Shown: positions 2,964-14,098 of the stretch, one piece after another
Layout of the letters: each line of letters begins with the position of its first letter
Numbering within the stretch: the stretch's first letter is position 1
Assembly (NCBI GenBank): GCA_019745975.1
Contig: JAIESQ010000029.1
Coordinates: 1-40,052 of the forward strand
DNA from: Pirellulales bacterium
GTDB taxonomy: Bacteria > Planctomycetota > Planctomycetia > Pirellulales > JAEUIK01
DNA: 40,052 nt
Direction of reading: 5' to 3'
The notes under the pieces: generated by a model
The model's database searches: none
What the model saw: only the letters and a program-made list of their open reading frames with translations
Told to the model about the DNA's origin: nothing
Translations under genes and position numbers: made by a program

Positions 2964-5018
2964 ATGGCGGATTCCTCGGCGAATCTTGATCAATTGGCGA
3001 TCGATACCATCCGCACCCTAGCCATGGATGCGGTCGAGCAGGCCAAGAGTGGCCACCCTGGCACGCCAATGGCGCTGGCGCCAGTGGCTTTCACGCTGTG
3101 GAATGAGTTTTTGGCATACGATCCAGCGCATCCGCTTTGGCCAGGTCGCGATCGCTTCGTGCTCTCATGCGGTCACGCCTCGATGCTGCTCTACGCGCTC
3201 TTGCATTTGGCCGGCGCGCGTCAAACGACGTCCGACGGACGCACGCTCGACGAGCCCGCCGTGCCACTGGCCGAGATACGCCGCTTTCGACAACTAGGGA
3301 GCCGCTGCCCTGGCCACCCCGAGCATGGGCTGACCGGCGGTGTGGAAACAACCACCGGTCCCCTGGGGCAAGGCGTCGGCAACAGCGTCGGTATGGCAAT
3401 CGCCCAGCGCTGGCTGGCGGCACATTTCCATCGGCCGGGCTGTGAACTTTGGAATTATCGCGTTTGGGCGCTGTGCAGCGACGGTGATCTCATGGAGGGA
3501 ATCAGCCATGAAGCGGCCTCGCTGGCCGGGCATCTGAAGCTAGCCAGTCTCTGCTGGATCTATGACGACAACCGCATCACGATCGAAGGGAAGACCGATC
3601 TGGCGTATAGCGATCGGACAGCAGAACGGTTCGCCGCCTATGGCTGGGATATCATTGAGTTGCCCGACGCCAACGATCTCCACGCGTTGCGGCGGGCATA
3701 CGCTCGCGTGGCGCGTTCCAGCCAGCGCCCGACATTGATCGTTGTGCGCAGCCACATTGCCTATGGCGCGCCAAACAAACAGGACACGCACGACGCTCAT
3801 GGTGCGCCGCTGGGATCCGACGAGATCGCTTTGACAAAGGCGGCGTATCATTGGCCGCCGGACGCGCAATTCCTCGTACCAGCCGAGGTGATCGAGCACA
3901 TGGCCGCCGGGCTGGGCGCGCGCGGTGCCCGATTGCATGCTGCTTGGTCTGCTCAATTCGCCTCGTACGCGCGCGAGTTCCCTGAGTTGGCCGAGCGCTG
4001 GCGGCTCATGAATAAACGACAACTCCCGCAAGGCTGGGACACGGACTTGCCGGTGTTTCCCGCGAGCGGTAAGGGTGACGCGACGCGTAACACATCAGGA
4101 AAGGCACTCAATGCGATTGCCAAACGCGTGCCTTGGCTGCTCGGTGGTTCGGCGGACCTGGCTCCCTCGACCAAGACCTTGATCGCCGGCGAAGCGAGTT
4201 TTTCGGCAGACAACCCTGTCGCGCGAAACCTGCATTTCGGGATCCGCGAACATGGCATGGCGGCAGCGCTCAACGGCATGGCGCTATCGGGGCTGCGCCC
4301 CTACGGCGCGACCTTTCTGGTGTTTAGCGACTATTGTCGGCCGTCGATTCGGCTCGCCGCGATCATGGAGCTGCCGGTTGTTTATGTCTTCACGCACGAC
4401 TCGATCGGAGTCGGCGAAGATGGGCCGACACACGAACCGATCGAGCACCTGGCGGCGCTGCGGTCGATTCCCAACTTGCTCGTGATGCGCCCCGCGGATG
4501 CCAACGAAGTTAGCCAGTGCTGGCGCGCAGCGCTGCTCGAGCGAGCGCGCCCCGTAGCCCTGGTGCTAACAAGGCAGAATGTGCCGACCTTCGATCGCGA
4601 CAAGTTGGGTGGGGCGACCGGAGTCGCGCGCGGTGCGTACGTGCTTGCCGACCCCCCCAGCGGGCAGCCGGCGGTGATCTTGATGGCCACGGGGAGCGAA
4701 GTTTCGCTCTGCGTGGCTGCCTACGAGCAATTGCTGAAAGCTGGCGTTCCCGCACGCGTTGTCAGCATGCCTTGCTGGGAATTGTTTGACGAGCAGCCGA
4801 CAAGTTATCGCCACGAGATCTTGCCGCCCGGGATCAAAGCGCGCGTCGGCGTGGAGGCTGGAATCGAGCAGGGCTGGAGGAAATACCTGGGCTCTCAGGG
4901 GCGGTTTATCGGGATGCACGGGTACGGCGCCTCGGCGCCCGCGGATGTGTTATTCGAACATTTCGGCCTTACGCCGGCCCACGTCGTCTCAGCGGCGCGA
5001 GCCTCTTTGGAACACTGA
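2964..5018 (+). CDS. tkt: Transketolase
   Basis: A thiamine-diphosphate enzyme of the pentose phosphate pathway, transferring two-carbon ketol units between sugar phosphates in the cytoplasm. Its 684 residues are close to the usual family length (about 660-690). Visible landmarks in order: 'SGHPGTPM' near the start, 'DRFVLSCGHASML', 'GPLGQGVGNSVGMA', the cofactor motif 'SDGDLMEGISHEAASLAGH' ending in 'IYDDN', the pyrimidine-domain 'FGIREHGMAAALNGMAL' with its catalytic Glu, and 'THDSIGVGEDGPTHEPIEH'. The start is fixed by an AAGGAG ribosome site about 6-10 bases upstream of ATG 2964. It stands alone on its strand, with about 180 bp of non-coding sequence before it and an inverted-repeat element directly after it. 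Confidence 0.97.
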   Translation: MADSSANLDQLAIDTIRTLAMDAVEQAKSGHPGTPMALAPVAFTLWNEFLAYDPAHPLWPGRDRFVLSCGHASMLLYALLHLAGARQTTSDGRTLDEPAVPLAEIRRFRQLGSRCPGHPEHGLTGGVETTTGPLGQGVGNSVGMAIAQRWLAAHFHRPGCELWNYRVWALCSDGDLMEGISHEAASLAGHLKLASLCWIYDDNRITIEGKTDLAYSDRTAERFAAYGWDIIELPDANDLHALRRAYARVARSSQRPTLIVVRSHIAYGAPNKQDTHDAHGAPLGSDEIALTKAAYHWPPDAQFLVPAEVIEHMAAGLGARGARLHAAWSAQFASYAREFPELAERWRLMNKRQLPQGWDTDLPVFPASGKGDATRNTSGKALNAIAKRVPWLLGGSADLAPSTKTLIAGEASFSADNPVARNLHFGIREHGMAAALNGMALSGLRPYGATFLVFSDYCRPSIRLAAIMELPVVYVFTHDSIGVGEDGPTHEPIEHLAALRSIPNLLVMRPADANEVSQCWRAALLERARPVALVLTRQNVPTFDRDKLGGATGVARGAYVLADPPSGQPAVILMATGSEVSLCVAAYEQLLKAGVPARVVSMPCWELFDEQPTSYRHEILPPGIKARVGVEAGIEQGWRKYLGSQGRFIGMHGYGASAPADVLFEHFGLTPAHVVSAARASLEH

Positions 5019-5029
5019 GCGTCGGCGGC

Positions 5030-5213
5030 CTAGCCCGCATTTCTCACCAGCCATCTGCTACGCGGAGCCCAAGTGCTTGGATGGCGGCGTCGCCGGGTGC
5101 GTCTCGATCCTCAACGTATGAGCCAATACGCTTCCGGTCGATCCACACTCTGCTTCTTGCCATCCAAGCACTTAACTCCGCTCGCGACGAAGTTGGTGAG
5201 AAATGCGGCCTAG
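5030..5213. repeat. 184-bp imperfect inverted repeat (MITE-like)
   Basis: The left arm (5030-5119) and right arm (5126-5213) are imperfect reverse complements along their whole length. The outer ends match at 19 of 20 positions (5030-5049 against 5194-5213). An inner block matches at 15 of 15 (5071-5085 against 5159-5173). A GCGGAG/CTCCGC block lies between them, and the centre is a small hairpin CGTAT/ATACG around a six-base loop. It fills almost the whole gap between tkt and the convergent acetyltransferase gene. It could be a miniature transposable element, two inverted copies of a lost element end, or a large transcribed hairpin. No coding capacity is evident. Confidence 0.75.
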
Positions 5214-5252
5214 AGCAAGGCTTGTCAATCCGGTGGCAATCGCTGTCGCGCG

Positions 5253-6782
5253 TTAACCGCTTCCCATTAATACGGTGTCGAGCGGCGAGTGCCACAGCGG
5301 CAGCATCGGGAAGAGCACTCGTGCGATATCCGCGGCGAGCTTAGTCGAGCTTTCGAGGCGACCGGCCTCCAGCGGCTCGTCCGCGCCTGAGTGCCCCAGT
5401 AGAAGTCGTGTGAGCTCGGCCCAGTTGCAGCTCAAATAGCTGCGGCCGAGCTTGCCCGGCACGAGCTTTGCGCTGCGGCGCGTCAGGATGATCTGCCAGC
5501 GCTCCCCTTCGACCAAAAGCCCTAACTCGCACGGCCGGTCGAGTCGTGCTGCTTCGGCGCGGGCATGCCAAAGTGGAACCATCCGGCCCAGAAAGGCCTG
5601 TGGAGCTAGCAAGCGAACCATGGTCACTTCGCCTTGGTCGACTTCGTGCCAGTGTCGATGACCACCTACGGCTGCAAAGGTGTCGTGAAGCGGATGGTCG
5701 GGAGCGGCATGCAGGACGACGGAAATGTGCGGGTCGCGCTCCAATGCATCGCTGCAGGCGCGGGCCAACAGGTGGGCGGCGGCGTCGGGGTGCTCGGCCG
5801 CGACCATGAGTTCCAGTACCTGCTGTTCGGGTCGAGCACGGTCTTGGCGCGTGATCGCATAGCCAACTATCGAAGTGGGATCGTCGGCCAACTCGCAGCG
5901 ATCGGGACCATTCACGGCGACCAGAACCTGATCGAATGCGCGGCTCCCCAAGAGCCAGCGCCAATAGGCTTCCCTACGTACGAATCGACCAAACGCGCCG
6001 GCCGAATCATTTCCGTAGAGCCGCATCAGGGCTGGCAGCTCAACTTGCCGCCAGGGCCGTACGCGATACGGGACCGTAGTCAGATCCCACTCCAAGGGGG
6101 CCAATCGAGCCATAACGGCCCGAGCGCCTGCCCGACTGTAGCTATGGCGTCCGCAACAAGCCCAACCATGCGGCCGGAAAAAATGCGGTATCCGCGTGCG
6201 CAGAAAACCCAGTTGTGCCCCATCGGCAAGCAGTTGGCCAGTGGCCGATGCCAATAGAGATTGCGCCAGACCCCTGCCGCGAACCTCGGGTACCGTTCCT
6301 AGCCAGGCGACTCCACCCGCGGGAAGCGTGAATGCCCCGAAATGTACCTCGCGCTGCGTGGCGTGGATGTGCGCAAGGATGCGATGCCGGTCCTTGACCA
6401 CAAGCCGATTGCGCGGCTCGTAAAAGGGATCTTCGTTGGAAGCGGCAAAGTGATCGGAACTCGGGCCCTGAAAAACCGCCTGCAAGAACTGATAAATGAC
6501 ACCGTGGTCGCCGGCCGCGGCTTCCACCACCGTGTGAGGCAAGGGCTCAAGCGGTACGCGTTCCTGCGGGTCGGCTTCTGGCGTGGGGTTGCGATCGTTT
6601 AGGGTTAGCGTTGGCCCGGGCGGAGCCGCCAACCGTCGGCGTGGCGACTTGATGAACGATCTGGCGGCGACCTTCCCGGAACCGGGGGATTTGCCGCGGT
6701 GAGACTTGGCGCGGAGCTTCCTGGCCCGACGTTTTCTGAGCGTTGCCGCACCCGCCGCGCGCCGCAAACGACCCTTGCGCAT
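5253..6782 (-). CDS. Eis-like GNAT N-acetyltransferase with basic N-terminal tail
   Basis: Resembles Eis-family acetyltransferases: two GNAT folds in tandem followed by a C-terminal SCP2-like domain. With the start at 6782 it has 509 residues. The acetyl-CoA loop is 'VRGRGLA' (about 167-173) after the strand 'GGVAWLGTVPE'. The second, degenerate GNAT fold spans about 235-400, and the C-terminal domain ends in 'PLWHSPLDTV'. ATG 6782 is preferred because AGGAAGGGA lies about 11 bases before it; a GTG at 6830 would sit 3 bp after the upstream stop. The first ~60 residues are extremely Lys/Arg-rich and are not part of any Eis I know. It is the last gene of the minus-strand operon with the BshC-like and glycosyltransferase genes. 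The substrate is unknown. Confidence 0.75.
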   Translation of the reverse strand: MRKGRLRRAAGAATLRKRRARKLRAKSHRGKSPGSGKVAARSFIKSPRRRLAAPPGPTLTLNDRNPTPEADPQERVPLEPLPHTVVEAAAGDHGVIYQFLQAVFQGPSSDHFAASNEDPFYEPRNRLVVKDRHRILAHIHATQREVHFGAFTLPAGGVAWLGTVPEVRGRGLAQSLLASATGQLLADGAQLGFLRTRIPHFFRPHGWACCGRHSYSRAGARAVMARLAPLEWDLTTVPYRVRPWRQVELPALMRLYGNDSAGAFGRFVRREAYWRWLLGSRAFDQVLVAVNGPDRCELADDPTSIVGYAITRQDRARPEQQVLELMVAAEHPDAAAHLLARACSDALERDPHISVVLHAAPDHPLHDTFAAVGGHRHWHEVDQGEVTMVRLLAPQAFLGRMVPLWHARAEAARLDRPCELGLLVEGERWQIILTRRSAKLVPGKLGRSYLSCNWAELTRLLLGHSGADEPLEAGRLESSTKLAADIARVLFPMLPLWHSPLDTVLMGSG

Positions 6783-6833
6783 CGGTCGGAATCCCTTCCT
6801 CGGCTGGAGTTCTAATCCCTCATTGGGCACAGG

Positions 6834-8480
6834 TTATCGCGAAGATGGACAGATTTCCAGCAAAAAATCCTGCAACTGTGAACTTGGGTAAAGACAAAAG
6901 GCATACTCGCGACCGGCCAAGACCTGCTCCGCCCCCAGCGCTTGCACGACTTGGTGGCGCTGTGCGGCTGTCCGACGCTGCTCCTCGCCGAGCGCCGAAT
7001 GCAAGCAGCCGTTGACGTTGCGGATTGCCCGGCAACGAAGCCGAGCATTCTCACGCGTTTGCGACTCCGCGATCCAGTGCTTTTTCTCGCGAATCAGTTC
7101 CCCGATGGTTGTGTCGTTGCTGTTGGACGAACAGGTAATCGGCTCATGTGCGCGCGACTCGGAAATAAACTGCTCAGGATGAAACTTCAGCTCGCGCAGC
7201 CGGCGATCGACAGCGCGAAGGTCGTCGGCTCCCACCGGCGGGCGAGCAATCGGCAATCGCAACGTCGCGGACAAGACGAGATAGCCTGGAGGTTCGATTC
7301 CATAGAAGCGACGCACGATGGCGTCGGTCAGTTCGTCGTATTTCGCCCCGCCGATGCCGTGGATGAACAAGTCCCCGACAAATACGCGGGCGAACATCGT
7401 CGTCGCCAAAGCTCGGCTGCGCAGCTTTACGCCCCGTACGGGCAAGGCCAGGATCCGCTCGACAAAGGTACGAGCATCGACCGGGCCAGCCGAGAGCTCG
7501 TGGCGCCAGCCGGCGCGATCGGCCAACTCCCAGGCAGCGCCGCGTCGCCGAACGTACAAGCGTCGTCGTCGCGGGTTTTCGCGCGTCCAGATCCAAAACG
7601 GCATTTCAATGCCGTTCTCATCTTTGCTCAATTCGGGCACGGGGTGATTGGCGCTGCGAATGTGATATTGGCGGCGGTACCGCTGCAGCGCGTGATTGTG
7701 CACACTGCGAAATCGTTCCGCCTCGGCGAACAGATGCGCGGCGAACCATGCGAACGAATCGAGCGCGCAGACGCGGCTTTGCGGCAGCTCGAGCGTGGTC
7801 AGCCCCCAATCCCCTTCCAGTTCGTGCCGCGCCTGAGCAAAGCACGCACCGATTAAAGACTCGTGTTGCGAGCGCGCGAGCACGCGCGGCCAATATTCTG
7901 CTATCAACGGGTCGCGCACCAGGCTTGCCAGGTGATGTTGCACGCGGTCGCCAAAGGTGCACCACGATTCACGATCGACGATCGTGCGCTGCTCATACGG
8001 GATTTCAGGCCCTGGCGCGTCGAACGGCACTTCCTCGACGCGGGGACGAGCCAGATCGCCGGTCGGCACCCGAATTGTTGAGCGCTTGAGGGTGTCGCTG
8101 TCGACGAGCAAGTTGACGGCGACTCCGCGAGTACCTGTCGCCAATCGCGAGAGGGCGAAGTTCTTTGCCCATACTCCCGGATGAAACAACTCCGGTTGAT
8201 GGCCGGCGAGGAATACTCGGTCGAGATTGGGCTGCGCTGGAATATCTCGGTAGGTCGCAGAATACGCGCGGGCGGCAGCAACGACTTCCGCACGAGCTCG
8301 GCGCGAAAGCTCTGCCATCGAAAGGCCTGCCCACTCGCGACCTGTCGCCTCGCCGCGACGGGCGAGATTTGCCGCCAGTAGGTCGCCGATTTCCGACCAG
8401 GGTGGGTCGATCAGTACCGATCGGTCAGCGGCAGGTGCCCGAAACCGACGCTCGCGGGGCGTCGACGAAGCGGAGGTCAT
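6834..8480 (-). CDS. Divergent BshC-like protein
   Basis: I read this as a distant relative of BshC, the enzyme that adds cysteine to GlcN-malate in bacillithiol synthesis. Its 548 residues are close to BshC length (about 540). 'GHQPELFHPGVWAKNF' (about 93-108) takes the place of the BshC 'GQQPGLF' motif. 'RALATTMFARVFVGDLFIHGIGG' positions 356-378 parallel the BshC segment around its 'GPGEIAYW' region. The C-terminus is a charged helical stretch ending in 'LYPSSQLQDFL', like the 'PGGxLQER' end of BshC. Identity to true BshC looks low, so the substrate may differ. The start ATG overlaps the stop of the glycosyltransferase (ATGA), and the acetyltransferase follows, so the three are probably translated together. 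Confidence 0.55.
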   Translation of the reverse strand: MTSASSTPRERRFRAPAADRSVLIDPPWSEIGDLLAANLARRGEATGREWAGLSMAELSRRARAEVVAAARAYSATYRDIPAQPNLDRVFLAGHQPELFHPGVWAKNFALSRLATGTRGVAVNLLVDSDTLKRSTIRVPTGDLARPRVEEVPFDAPGPEIPYEQRTIVDRESWCTFGDRVQHHLASLVRDPLIAEYWPRVLARSQHESLIGACFAQARHELEGDWGLTTLELPQSRVCALDSFAWFAAHLFAEAERFRSVHNHALQRYRRQYHIRSANHPVPELSKDENGIEMPFWIWTRENPRRRRLYVRRRGAAWELADRAGWRHELSAGPVDARTFVERILALPVRGVKLRSRALATTMFARVFVGDLFIHGIGGAKYDELTDAIVRRFYGIEPPGYLVLSATLRLPIARPPVGADDLRAVDRRLRELKFHPEQFISESRAHEPITCSSNSNDTTIGELIREKKHWIAESQTRENARLRCRAIRNVNGCLHSALGEEQRRTAAQRHQVVQALGAEQVLAGREYAFCLYPSSQLQDFLLEICPSSR

Positions 8481-9226
8481 CCCGCCGCTTCTCCACAGAG
8501 AGTGCCCGACCAGATCTCGCCGGCCGGCACGCCGATGGCGGCCAGACTGCGGTCAAGCACGAGGTGATAGTATTCCAGCCGCGTGGCAGCATCATCAAGT
8601 GCGCCGCCAAAGGAGCGCTTCTCGTCCAGATATATCAACGGTACCGGCAGTTCGACGACTTGGAGGCCGGCCGCGGCCGCCTGCACCCACAACTCGAGCG
8701 GCATGGCGTAGCCCGCCTCGGATAGTCGCAAGCGCTTAAGTCCGGGGACGCGGTAAGCCTTAAAGCCGCAAAACGCATCGGTGAGATTCAGGCATAGGCG
8801 CCGGTTCAGATCGGCGGTGATTTGCAGATTGATCCGGCGACGATCCGCTGGCGGCGCGCTGTCGCCGTCGTAGTGTTTCAAGTACCTGCTCCCCGAGACG
8901 ATGTCGGCATTGTCGCAAGCCGCGACAAAACGAGGAATTCGCTGCGGCTCGTGTTGGCCGTCGCAGTCAATCGTGACGAGGATTTCGTAGCTGTCGGCGA
9001 TTGACCGCTCGAAGGCGGTTGCCAGCGCGGTGCCATAACCCCGATTCTGGGGATGTCGAATCACCTGGATATCGCGGCGTTGAGCCAATCGCTCCGACGT
9101 GCCGTCGGTCGATCCGTCGTCGACGACGAGGACATCCGCACAATGTCGCAACACCTCGTCGAGCACCGCGTCGACGTGCGCGACTTCATTGTAAACCGGC
9201 AGCGCCGTCAGCACGCGTCGAGTCAT
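8477..9226 (-). CDS. Family 2 glycosyltransferase (DPM1/polyprenyl-phosphate type)
   Basis: A GT-A fold glycosyltransferase of 249 residues. 'LPVYNEVAHVDAVLDEV' at the N-terminus, 'VLVVDDGSTDGT', the nucleotide-sugar segment 'HPQNRGYGTALATAF' and the metal-binding 'TIDCDGQHEP' follow the order seen in dolichol/undecaprenyl-phosphate sugar transferases. No membrane helix is visible, so it would act at the cytoplasmic side of a membrane or on a soluble acceptor. It is the first gene of the operon with the BshC-like and Eis-like genes; its stop overlaps the next start by four bases. The acceptor and sugar cannot be read. A weak hairpin (9281-9294) lies upstream, between it and the NIF3-family gene. 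Confidence 0.88.
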   Translation of the reverse strand: MTRRVLTALPVYNEVAHVDAVLDEVLRHCADVLVVDDGSTDGTSERLAQRRDIQVIRHPQNRGYGTALATAFERSIADSYEILVTIDCDGQHEPQRIPRFVAACDNADIVSGSRYLKHYDGDSAPPADRRRINLQITADLNRRLCLNLTDAFCGFKAYRVPGLKRLRLSEAGYAMPLELWVQAAAAGLQVVELPVPLIYLDEKRSFGGALDDAATRLEYYHLVLDRSLAAIGVPAGEIWSGTLCGEAAG

Positions 9227-9309: not shown

Positions 9310-10092
9310 CTAAAGCCAACGCAGTGGGTCGCGTTCGCGGCGGCTCGCCCAAGTCTCGATGGACGGATACTTTCGGGCGAGGACCGCGGCCAGATGCTCG
9401 ACTCCGGGGCGCTCTGATGCGTAGTGGCCAACCAGCAAGAGCGCGATGCCGAGAGCTTCGGCCTCCAGGCAATCGTGAAAGCGTGACTCGCCGGTTAGCA
9501 AGACCTGACAGCCGGCGGCATAGGCTGCGGGAATCAAGTCGGCCGCGCTCCCGCAAGTGATCGCGACTCTGGAAATGCTTGCGGTTGGATCGCCGACGAG
9601 TTGCAGATGATTGATTGCCAGAGAGCGCTGCACCTGTCGGGCCAGCTCATCAAGTTGACAAGGTTGATCCAGCTCGCCGTGGCGCCCGGCACCGAACCCC
9701 GTGGGATGTGGTACGAGCGGTTGGGCGTGGCGCAATTGTAACTTCGAGGCCAATAGCGCGTTGATGCCGTCGGCGGCTGAATCGAACGCCGTGTGCGGAC
9801 TGAAAACAGCGACGCCTGCGCCGGCTAATTGCCAGAGCAAGCGCCCCGCGGTGGCGTCGGTCGTTAATGTGCGAAGCGGCCGAAATGGCAGCGGATGATG
9901 CGACACGATTAACTGTGCGCGCGCGGCGCATGCTTCCGCCACGCTGTGGGGTGTAATCGTCAGACAAGTCATCACTCGCTCAACAGGCGCTGCGCGGTCG
10001 CCGAGGAGCAGACCGACATTGTCCCAGTCGGCCGCTAACTCAAGCGGAGCAAAGGATTCGAGAAACTGCGCGATTTCGCCAACGGTAATCAT
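9310..10092 (-). CDS. NIF3-like dinuclear metal protein (YbgI/GTP cyclohydrolase type 2 family)
   Basis: A member of the NIF3/YbgI family, hexameric proteins with a two-metal site whose physiological role is still debated. It has 260 residues from ATG 10092; a TTG at 10101 is possible but the family start is 'MITVGEIAQFLE'. Metal ligands are visible: His-His in 'IVSHHPLPF', His and Asp in 'SPHTAFDSA', and His and Glu in the C-terminal 'GHYASERPGVEHL'. 'WDNVGLLLGD' near the start is the family signature. It is divergent from the isomerase-like gene at 10238 and lies upstream of the glycosyltransferase operon on the same strand, with an 83-bp gap. Confidence 0.92.
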   Translation of the reverse strand: MITVGEIAQFLESFAPLELAADWDNVGLLLGDRAAPVERVMTCLTITPHSVAEACAARAQLIVSHHPLPFRPLRTLTTDATAGRLLWQLAGAGVAVFSPHTAFDSAADGINALLASKLQLRHAQPLVPHPTGFGAGRHGELDQPCQLDELARQVQRSLAINHLQLVGDPTASISRVAITCGSAADLIPAAYAAGCQVLLTGESRFHDCLEAEALGIALLLVGHYASERPGVEHLAAVLARKYPSIETWASRRERDPLRWL

Positions 10093-10237
10093 TACCCGCA
10101 ACGATGACGCCGGCCGGTGAGCTTGTCAATCTTGGCGGGCGTGGGATAGTGAACCGTAGTTAGTGCACACCTTGGCTGCCGGATGCAGACATTCACGGCA
10201 GCGCTTGTGTCATCAGTTCTTTCCAGGAATCGTCGTC

Positions 10238-12511: not shown

Positions 12512-14098
12512 TCAATCGGTTGGCGGTATGGCTCGAACTCGTCGCGCAAAGCGATTCAGTAGTCCTTGCACGCGAGCCCGGTCAACGGCGTCGAAACCGA
12601 TCGTCCAACCGAGCGCGGCACAGATCACTCCCATAATCGCGGTGCAAGCGATCAGGCTGGCGAGCGTATCTGGGGACACCAAGTAGTTCAGTGCTAGGCC
12701 GCCACAGCTTGCCAGCACAAGTACGATGAGCGGACGCGAGAAGCCTTCGAGCAAGTAACGGCCCGCCCCCAGGCCAGTCGCATTACCGACGTAAACGCTG
12801 ATCACGAGGGTTTGTGTCCAACCGGCAACGACGGCTGGCATGGCGACGCCGATGATACTGTAGTATCCCCAGCCGCGATGGTAGAGCCACCAGGTGCAAA
12901 CGACGCCAGCGATGACCGACAGTAGCCCGCCGATCAGTTGCACGATGGTAATGAAGCGGACGCGATTCAACCCGGTCATCACGAAGCCCTGGGTTTCGCG
13001 AACGTGCGTCGAGACGTCGGCCAGCGCCAGTGTCATCAAGACCCACGCGGTTGGTTCGTTATCGCCGACGAGCCACACGCGCACGATGGGAAAGGCGAAG
13101 CAAGTTAGCATCACGCAAAACGGCGTGCTCAACAAGATCGTCAGGCGCGTGCCGCGCAAGAGCACTTCGCGGATCGCGGCGCCCTCGCCTTGGGCGTCGT
13201 ACGCGGCAATCAAAGGCTTCATCTGACGGCTCAGGCCAGCCACGAACGGATAGGCCGAGGTCACCGCCATCTGTGCCGGGCGATAGAATCCCTGTCCGTT
13301 GGAAGATAGAAACCGCGAAATCACGGCTGGGTCGGTTAGATCGTTGATCTTGATCGCACTTTGATACAGGAATACCAGGCCACCGAGTGAGATCGTCTGT
13401 GCAATCGCATCGCGGCGAACATAGCGAGGACGCAGCGCCAAGGCCGGGCAGACGCGAAACGCTGCCGCCACGTTGATAACAGTAAGCACCACTTGAGCAA
13501 CCAGCAGGGCGAAGGCCCAGCCGTAGATCCCCCAGTTCATCACGCCGATCGCCAGAACCATCAGCACCAGACGCAGCAGTACTTCAGCGAGATGAGCGAA
13601 ATCCACTACGTCGAACCGGTGATACGCTTCGATCAAAGCGCCGAACGTTGGCGCCACAAAGGAGAGCATTACGCTCGCCGACACGAAGTAGCGCACGAGT
13701 ACAATCGCGTCGGCGCGCTGGCTCGGAGCGAAGTTCATCGCCTCGACCAACGGCTCGGCGGCAACCAGGCAAACGACCGCCAACACCGCACCGATCGCCA
13801 GCACGAAGGCCAGCGAGCTATTGAACAGTTCGTTGAGGCGTTGGTGGTTTCCCAGAGCGATTTGCTCGGCGACATGCCGCCCCAAAGCTGCGCGCAGGCC
13901 ACCGTCGCACAACAGCATGACCACGACGATCCAAGTCAGCAGGCTGACGGCGCCGAAACCTTCTTGACCTAGCTCCAGGCGTTGGTACCGCACCAGATAA
14001 ATGGCGACGACTGCCGCCAGCAAGCTCGAAAGCCATTTGGTAGCGGTATTCCAGGCAAGCCGGCTGGAAACGTTCAGTGCGGCGGAACTGGCAGGCAA
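12512..14098 (-). CDS. Polysaccharide flippase (Wzx/MOP superfamily)
   Basis: An integral membrane protein of 528 residues with about 12-14 hydrophobic segments along its length and no large soluble domain, as in Wzx/RfbX-type oligosaccharide transporters of the MOP superfamily. The first helix follows 'RLAWNTATKWLSSLLAAVVA', typical of the family N-terminus. It would flip lipid-linked sugar units across the cytoplasmic membrane. The start is a TTG at 14098; no ATG or GTG lies close by in frame, so the exact start is uncertain. It lies 65 bp downstream of the membrane-bound dehydratase gene and 22 bp upstream of rsmE, inside the minus-strand polysaccharide arm. Confidence 0.87.
   Translation of the reverse strand: MPASSAALNVSSRLAWNTATKWLSSLLAAVVAIYLVRYQRLELGQEGFGAVSLLTWIVVVMLLCDGGLRAALGRHVAEQIALGNHQRLNELFNSSLAFVLAIGAVLAVVCLVAAEPLVEAMNFAPSQRADAIVLVRYFVSASVMLSFVAPTFGALIEAYHRFDVVDFAHLAEVLLRLVLMVLAIGVMNWGIYGWAFALLVAQVVLTVINVAAAFRVCPALALRPRYVRRDAIAQTISLGGLVFLYQSAIKINDLTDPAVISRFLSSNGQGFYRPAQMAVTSAYPFVAGLSRQMKPLIAAYDAQGEGAAIREVLLRGTRLTILLSTPFCVMLTCFAFPIVRVWLVGDNEPTAWVLMTLALADVSTHVRETQGFVMTGLNRVRFITIVQLIGGLLSVIAGVVCTWWLYHRGWGYYSIIGVAMPAVVAGWTQTLVISVYVGNATGLGAGRYLLEGFSRPLIVLVLASCGGLALNYLVSPDTLASLIACTAIMGVICAALGWTIGFDAVDRARVQGLLNRFARRVRAIPPTD

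Follow-up and report, generated by a model that had tools for sequence, protein, structure and literature searches.

We analyzed a gene cluster at positions 5,253 to 9,226 of a 40,052-nucleotide stretch of contig JAIESQ010000029.1 from a Pirellulales bacterium (this whole stretch is referred to as the window). The cluster encodes a GT2 glycosyltransferase, a 548-amino-acid protein that we call BC throughout, and an Eis-like acetyltransferase. We conclude, with a probability of roughly 0.6, that it belongs to a bacillithiol-type pathway in which the GT2 stands in for BshA and the amino acid is added by a divergent ligase related to BshC. The product is probably a cysteinyl-glucosaminide thiol. 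A sugar-linked small-molecule pathway had been suggested by an earlier examination of the DNA (the sequence-only reading), and it is the best reading of the locus. The three tightly packed minus-strand genes lie where they had been reported, with the ATGA overlap. The relevant features are as follows.

8477..9226, minus strand: GT2 glycosyltransferase gene (open reading frame of 249 amino acids; DPM/PpgS-like)
8477..8480, minus strand: ATGA stop-start overlap of 4 nt between the GT2 and BC genes (from reading frame coordinates)
6834..8480, minus strand: BC gene, a BshC-like or class I aminoacyl-tRNA synthetase (aaRS)-like ligase (open reading frame of 548 amino acids)
8163..8204, minus strand: BC motif I, GHQPELFHPGVWAK, residues 93-106 (from alignment A1, 57 proteins)
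7335..7361, minus strand: BC motif HGIGGAKYD, residues 374-382 (near the BshC motif GGPxExxY in a global profile alignment)
5253..6830, minus strand: Eis-like acetyltransferase (GNAT) gene, accessory (open reading frame of 525 amino acids, listed GTG start)

BC belongs to the BshC/class I aaRS fold group and is distantly homologous to BshC, but it is not a BshC by curated cut-offs. No Pfam or NCBIfam family matched BC even at an E value of 1, and the cut-offs of the BshC models (TIGR03998, PF10079) were not reached. Searches of PDB sequences with phmmer and hmmsearch found no real relative; the single match was a chance match to a designed minibinder. A single-protein BC scan of genome contigs gave no match, and the one BC match in the window's genome was BC itself. 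Structural comparison showed the resemblance to BshC that the sequence-only reading had expected. An AlphaFold model of BC, built from 66 sequences, had a pLDDT of 94.9 and a pTM of 0.91. Using this model, Foldseek identified three PDB chains at an E value of 1e-3 or below: BshC of B. subtilis (4wbd), which was the best match (E 2.3e-12), and two chains of the class I LysRS 1irx. In VIA-align, BC matched 4wbd over 453 residues (Z 26.3, rmsd 6.6, 9% identity), indicating a whole-length BshC fold. The core fold is also shared with 1irx (Z 20.2, rmsd 3.3), but only 279 of 508 residues were aligned and there was no match at the level of sequence. The rows that followed these two formed a plateau near Z 10 that included GluRS, CysRS, and MshC (Z 10.1), which places the mycothiol enzyme MshC, itself CysRS-like, in the fold group of BC.

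Comparisons of BC with the BshC family by sequence profile gave a divided answer. The curated models failed to match, as described above, whereas a profile-profile comparison (hhalign) between BC alignment A1 and 18 canonical planctomycete BshCs gave a probability of 94.5% and a score of 69.5. Control scores were 24.9 or less, and included reversed profiles (22.1 and 24.9), the GT2 profile (19.3), and 20 column shuffles (21.4 or less). Alignment A1 contains 57 of 61 BC proteins (those of L056, L078, L084, and L090 were short or cut and were left out), and the BshC alignment, A5, contains 18 of 23 BshCs. Motif I and the region of D127 and D129 align between the BC and BshC profiles. Taken with the structural match, the score agrees with the earlier description of the middle protein as BshC-like. 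Twelve positions were invariant in A1 (G93, G102, K106, N262, P294, W296, R305, R365, G375, G378, Y381, and R524) and eight were nearly so (H94, H100, D127, D129, E292, D370, H374, and D382). There were no cysteines in either group.

The GT2 is a regular partner of BC, as had been thought. We analyzed two sets of loci: 61 neighbourhoods (the window and 60 other stretches) and a second set of 80 named loci, found with a closer BC alignment and including loci of Lacipirellula limnantheis and Aeoliella straminimaris (L157, L158). A GT2 gene was directly upstream of BC on the same strand in 76 of the 80 named loci, with a gap of -28 to +247 nt, and in 41 of the 61 neighbourhoods. In two of the four exceptions the contig begins within BC (L122, L141), in one the GT2 is 6.7 kb away (L147), and in one none was found (L114). 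The adjacency occurs in widely separate families. Therefore, the earlier expectation that the gene order would be kept in relatives holds for the GT2 and BC, which are a core unit in an arrangement that is more than chance. It holds only in part for the acetyltransferase, whose reading frame starts 400 nt or less from the end of BC in 47 of the 80 named loci (7 of the 32 loci without it have less than 1 kb of contig left) and which is present in 8 of the 61 neighbourhoods. Because of these frequencies, we regard the acetyltransferase as an accessory, optional third gene.

The same association was found in a survey of 392 Planctomycetota genomes, the common set for our counts of BC, BshC, and GT2. 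BC was detected in 98 genomes by tblastn and in seven more by a more sensitive profile search that covered 38 genomes, giving 105. Canonical BshC (PF10079) was detected in 180 genomes, of which 178 were above the cut-off; the weak matches in G362 and G378 were dropped before the combined counts were made. The partner GT2, called with profile A2 (28 of 41 GT2s) at an E value of 1e-50, was present in 103 genomes: 99 with BC, four with BshC, and none without either ligase. BC and BshC never occurred in one genome, and the 16 BshC genomes included in the sensitive profile search contained no BC. There were 109 genomes with neither ligase and none of them had the GT2. Among 22 tested BC genomes without an adjacent GT2, 20 carry one elsewhere (at least 274 bits; the misses are G267 and G374). 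Control genomes gave no GT2, either among nine with BshC (143 bits or less, G318 apart) or among six with neither ligase (112 bits or less). The GT2 and ligase genome sets depend on the thresholds chosen, and Fisher P values on these counts overstate independence because the distribution follows clades. This clade structure is what would be expected if the pairing of GT2 and BC were a matter of clade history only, with the two proteins acting in unrelated processes. We give that explanation almost no credence, given the adjacency in widely separate families, the absence of any GT2 genome (0 of 103) without a BshC-family partner, and the adjacency in reverse order beside BshC in families f37 and f98, described below.

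The four GT2 genomes with BshC instead of BC (G094, G341, G310, and G318) have a PF10079 match, and none of the four has BC, bacilliredoxin, or a BshA above the cut-off. Three of the BshCs could be scored, and all exceeded the NCBIfam equivalog cut-off of 265.8 (314.2, 310.8, and 293.3); that of G341 is cut short by the end of its contig (57 bits). The GT2 gene directly follows the BshC gene in G310, G318, and G341 (f37, f98), the reverse of the order of GT2 and BC. In G310 (L204, minus strand), BshC (6083-7717), the GT2 (5329-6096), and a PIG-L deacetylase (4639-5325) are consecutive, with an overlap of 14 nt and a gap of 3 nt. More generally, 23 BshC genomes were tested for BshA (TIGR03999), and all but G310 had one above the cut-off; these are the 22 without the GT2, and bacillithiol is therefore predicted there. 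None of 57 BC genomes, including that of the window, had a BshA above the cut-off.

The choice of partner is mirrored in motif I. The sequence-only reading had stated that GHQPELFHPGVW (BC residues 93-104) replaces the BshC motif, with GHQ in place of GQQ, and this difference is real. The histidine is present in 59 of 61 rows of the BC alignment. By comparison, all 63 BshC motifs that were read from the 174 BshC genomes without the GT2 have GQQ, whereas GHQP is present in all three of the GT2-partnered BshCs whose motif could be read. GHQ versus GQQ tracks the partner enzyme, and GHQP is a marker. The GHQ of the GT2-partnered BshCs should be counted as one or two events rather than three, because f37 and f98 may share an origin. 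BC differs further from planctomycete BshCs in having H94 and H100-P-G where they have GQQ...GGP. In the model, H100-P-G-V sits at the start of a helix that follows a strand. It resembles the HIGH motif of class I aaRSs, to which it may correspond; no KMSKS motif was assigned.

A deacetylase of the bacillithiol type accompanies the GT2 and its ligase. The sequence-only reading had noted that neither BshA nor BshB is present. This is correct for BshA but, if the genome is meant, not for BshB. The window's genome encodes a BshB1-type PIG-L on a contig other than that of the GT2 and BC (G000:C202, about 24.2 kb) that scores 217.2 bits against an NCBIfam BshB1 cut-off of 182.5 and has BshB1 (6p2t) among its nearest solved structures. 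By curated models, then, this genome has BshB1 and lacks BshA and BshC, with the GT2 and BC in their place. A PIG-L above the cut-off was found in 51 of 52 BC genomes, in all three tested GT2 genomes with BshC, and in all 14 BshC genomes tested. In a tree made from 79 of 80 fetched stretches (one was not readable), 47 deacetylases from 47 GT2 genomes, including those of the window's genome, G310, and G094, form one clade (support 100/99). This clade joins 13 BshBs of BshA genomes (98/97), 11 of which adjoin BshA (the exceptions are those of G022 and G086). The remaining 19 PIG-Ls lie elsewhere in the tree. In seven fetched genomes (G002, G034, G172, G278, G337, G360, and G094) the clade member is the sole PIG-L match. 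All 47 deacetylases match BshB1 at an E value of 1e-30. With an E value of 1e-53 as a proxy for the equivalog cut-off, about 31 of the 47 and all 13 BshBs pass; the best of the 19 others reached 6e-43. The consensus at residues 45-56 or so is GEPTPxGxPExR in GT2 genomes versus GExGTRGTxETR in BshB. A PIG-L gene that follows BC in G307 (L068 5697-6617, minus strand; also L300) was considered as operon evidence, but it lies outside the deacetylase clade and was not counted.

The GT2 itself belongs to PF00535 (E 2.9e-25; 89.6 bits against a cut-off of 23.3), the domain family that includes PpgS and dolichol-phosphate mannose synthase. It reached no NCBIfam equivalog cut-off, and the nearest model was PpgS, a polyprenyl-phospho-GalNAc synthase. 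In a tree of 64 sequences the partner GT2s group in a single clade (98/98) with 12 other planctomycete GT2s outside, and the four BshC-partnered GT2s are within it as a subclade of their own (100/99). The C-terminal tails are variable, often with at least one cysteine near the end, and some are cysteine-rich (window 8477-8520; L041, L048, L056, L085). A different GT2, with 57-83 bits to the partner profile, adjoins canonical BshC in 13 loci of f28, including L186, L179, and L185. Three of these were placed in the tree, and all fell outside the partner clade.

The nearest named relatives of the GT2 act on polyprenyl phosphates, and for this reason the main rival to our interpretation is a lipid-linked route. 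In such a route the GT2 would make polyprenyl-phosphate-GlcNAc, the PIG-L would deacetylate it, and BC would aminoacylate the sugar for the envelope, without any redox thiol. The nearest solved structures (dolichol monophosphate mannose synthase, profile E 7e-23, with undecaprenyl phosphate glycosyltransferases also near) fit this route, as does the nearest NCBIfam model. The PpgS score, however, was 94.3 bits against a cut-off of 370, or about one quarter. A MATE/SpoVB-like membrane protein gene upstream of the cluster (12512-14098, minus strand; a weak match, 47 bits to SpoVB) could also speak for a lipid-linked product, but tblastn found no match to it in either set of loci beyond the window (60 neighbourhoods and 80 named loci), and 20 annotated neighbour proteins (six without a Pfam family) included no flippase and no GT-C. 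In addition, the deacetylase is BshB1-like, and G310 and G318 pair the same GT2 family with BshCs above the NCBIfam cut-off. Overall, a lipid-linked route seems unlikely.

In the bacillithiol-type pathway that we favor, a nucleotide sugar would donate N-acetylglucosamine, which the GT2 would transfer to a small acceptor. GT2 enzymes are inverting, whereas BshA and MshA belong to GT4 and are retaining, and bacillithiol and mycothiol are alpha-glycosides; a beta-glycoside is therefore predicted. The BshB1-type PIG-L, encoded elsewhere, would free the amine, as its family suggests. BC, as a homologue of BshC with the same fold, would then couple an amino acid, most likely cysteine, to the freed amine. 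Members of the clade that have the Eis-like gene alongside may go on to acylate the product with that enzyme. The resulting cysteinyl-glucosaminide would likely be these bacteria's protective low-molecular-weight thiol. In its succession of glycosyltransferase, deacetylase, and cysteine ligase, this scheme parallels the mycothiol pathway (MshA-MshD). It resembles the bacillithiol pathway (BshA-BshB-BshC) in combining a glycosyltransferase, a BshB1-type PIG-L, and a BshC-family ligase, and differs from it in having a GT2 rather than the GT4 BshA, a BC outside the BshC models, GHQ rather than GQQ, and no bacilliredoxin.

Bacilliredoxin (PF06491) was found in none of 57 BC genomes, and in 20 of 22 BshC genomes without the GT2 (the misses are G011 and G050). 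Its absence, together with the different deacetylase consensus, points to a product other than bacillithiol. The same two differences make it very improbable that diverged enzymes produce ordinary bacillithiol (Cys-GlcN-malate) with the GT2 simply in the place of BshA, even though a BshB1-type deacetylase and BshC relatives have been kept; moreover, bacillithiol is an alpha-glycoside, and the GT2 should invert. Alternatively, BC might ligate an amino acid other than cysteine to the same scaffold, in which case the product would be no thiol but an amide metabolite, for example an osmolyte or a signal. The lack of bacilliredoxin would be consistent with this alternative, as would the closeness of the BC core to LysRS and the lack of cysteine among the conserved positions of A1. 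Because the best whole-length structural match is BshC, a cysteine adder, with MshC and CysRS in later rows, we consider a non-cysteine product rather improbable.

The acetyltransferase had been likened, as a double-GNAT protein, to MshD of the mycothiol pathway. That likeness did not hold: an MshD-like identity was rejected on the NCBIfam scan and the structural match, and the enzyme is Eis-like. It matched PF13527 above the cut-off (E 3.2e-15), with a weak SCP2_2 match (14.9 bits against 23.2), and scored 31.8 bits against 259 for the nearest NCBIfam model, NF002367. The best Foldseek match of its model was Eis2 (6rfy; E 9.4e-21, TM 0.60/0.76), and the model has the Eis-like fold of tandem GNAT plus an SCP2-like domain. 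It matches Eis structures (6rfy, 3ryo) over about 440 columns, at 14-17% identity, and the gene is in only part of the clade. If the listed GTG start is used, the acetyltransferase gene is 3 nt from BC. However, the true start is probably downstream, since the first 80-95 codons (6545-6830) are basic, modeled with low confidence (nearly all of residues 4-82 are below pLDDT 50), and unconserved in the alignment (A6; 41 of 44 acetyltransferases plus that of the window).

Several other genes were found near the cluster. A NIF3/DUF34 gene (9310-10101, minus strand) is 83 nt upstream of the GT2 on the same strand, and a NIF3/DUF34 match is within 0.4 kb upstream of the GT2 in 23 of the 80 named loci. 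Seven of the 61 neighbourhoods have a Fe/Mn superoxide dismutase gene that is oriented opposite to BC and lies about 1 kb upstream of it (one annotated; L036 10037-10699). A beta-eliminating lyase gene (PF01212; L069 9193-10620, plus strand) starts 9 nt after BC in G354, and two f96 genomes (L058, L060) encode MutS immediately upstream of BC. L141 is a contig labelled Candidatus Nealsonbacteria with a 48% identical BC and an acetyltransferase, and is probably a binning error.

In addition to the polyprenyl phosphate relatives of the GT2 and the missing bacilliredoxin, several observations weigh against the proposed pathway. The narrower BC alignment A4 (65 of 76 complete BC proteins plus that of the window) gave a probability of only 5.3% in hhalign, and the profile evidence for homology between BC and BshC thus hangs on the broad alignment A1. 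A BshC HMM found no significant match among 61 single BC proteins (best E 0.032). Six of the 105 BC genomes (G114, G267, G328, G364, G370, and G374) had no GT2 at an E value of 1e-50; four of the six are more than 90% complete, and G374 also lacks the PIG-L. The missing BshA is weak evidence in any single one of G341, G310, and G318, which are 61%, 64%, and 73% complete. The PIG-L was picked by alignment length for most genomes, and the extra PIG-Ls of BshC genomes are outside the sample. Lastly, the clade structure of the distributions leaves few independent events.

A more specific form of the proposal is possible, and we offer it tentatively. Much of Planctomycetota may have a third class of sugar-based thiol alongside mycothiol and bacillithiol: a glucosaminide that is beta-linked, has a non-malate aglycone, and carries a cysteinyl amide, made by the GT2, a BshB1-like deacetylase, and a GHQ-type BshC or BC. 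The H/Q switch in motif I would then read the anomeric or aglycone difference, and the HxG of BC would identify it as a BshC form that is aaRS-like and adenylating.

In the open-licence full-text literature, bioRxiv apart, we found no described GT2-based variant of bacillithiol synthesis and no planctomycete thiol. A passage of Hiras et al. 2018 (PMC6282198) places Planctomycetes among the lineages without a documented or predicted low-molecular-weight thiol. The survey in PMC12719100 took complete BshA-BshB-BshC sets as its criterion, and by that criterion BC genomes would not be counted.

Our results indicate that the phylum is split between 178 of 392 genomes with BshC and 105 with BC, the latter without an earlier thiol candidate. 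The BC genomes gain a concrete candidate for a three-gene thiol pathway, and searches based on BshA and BshC would miss such a route. The findings suggest that a thiol pathway can swap the class of its glycosyltransferase while the deacetylase and ligase families are kept. BC, as a relative of BshC that is near class I aaRS folds, would be useful for studying how BshC acts.

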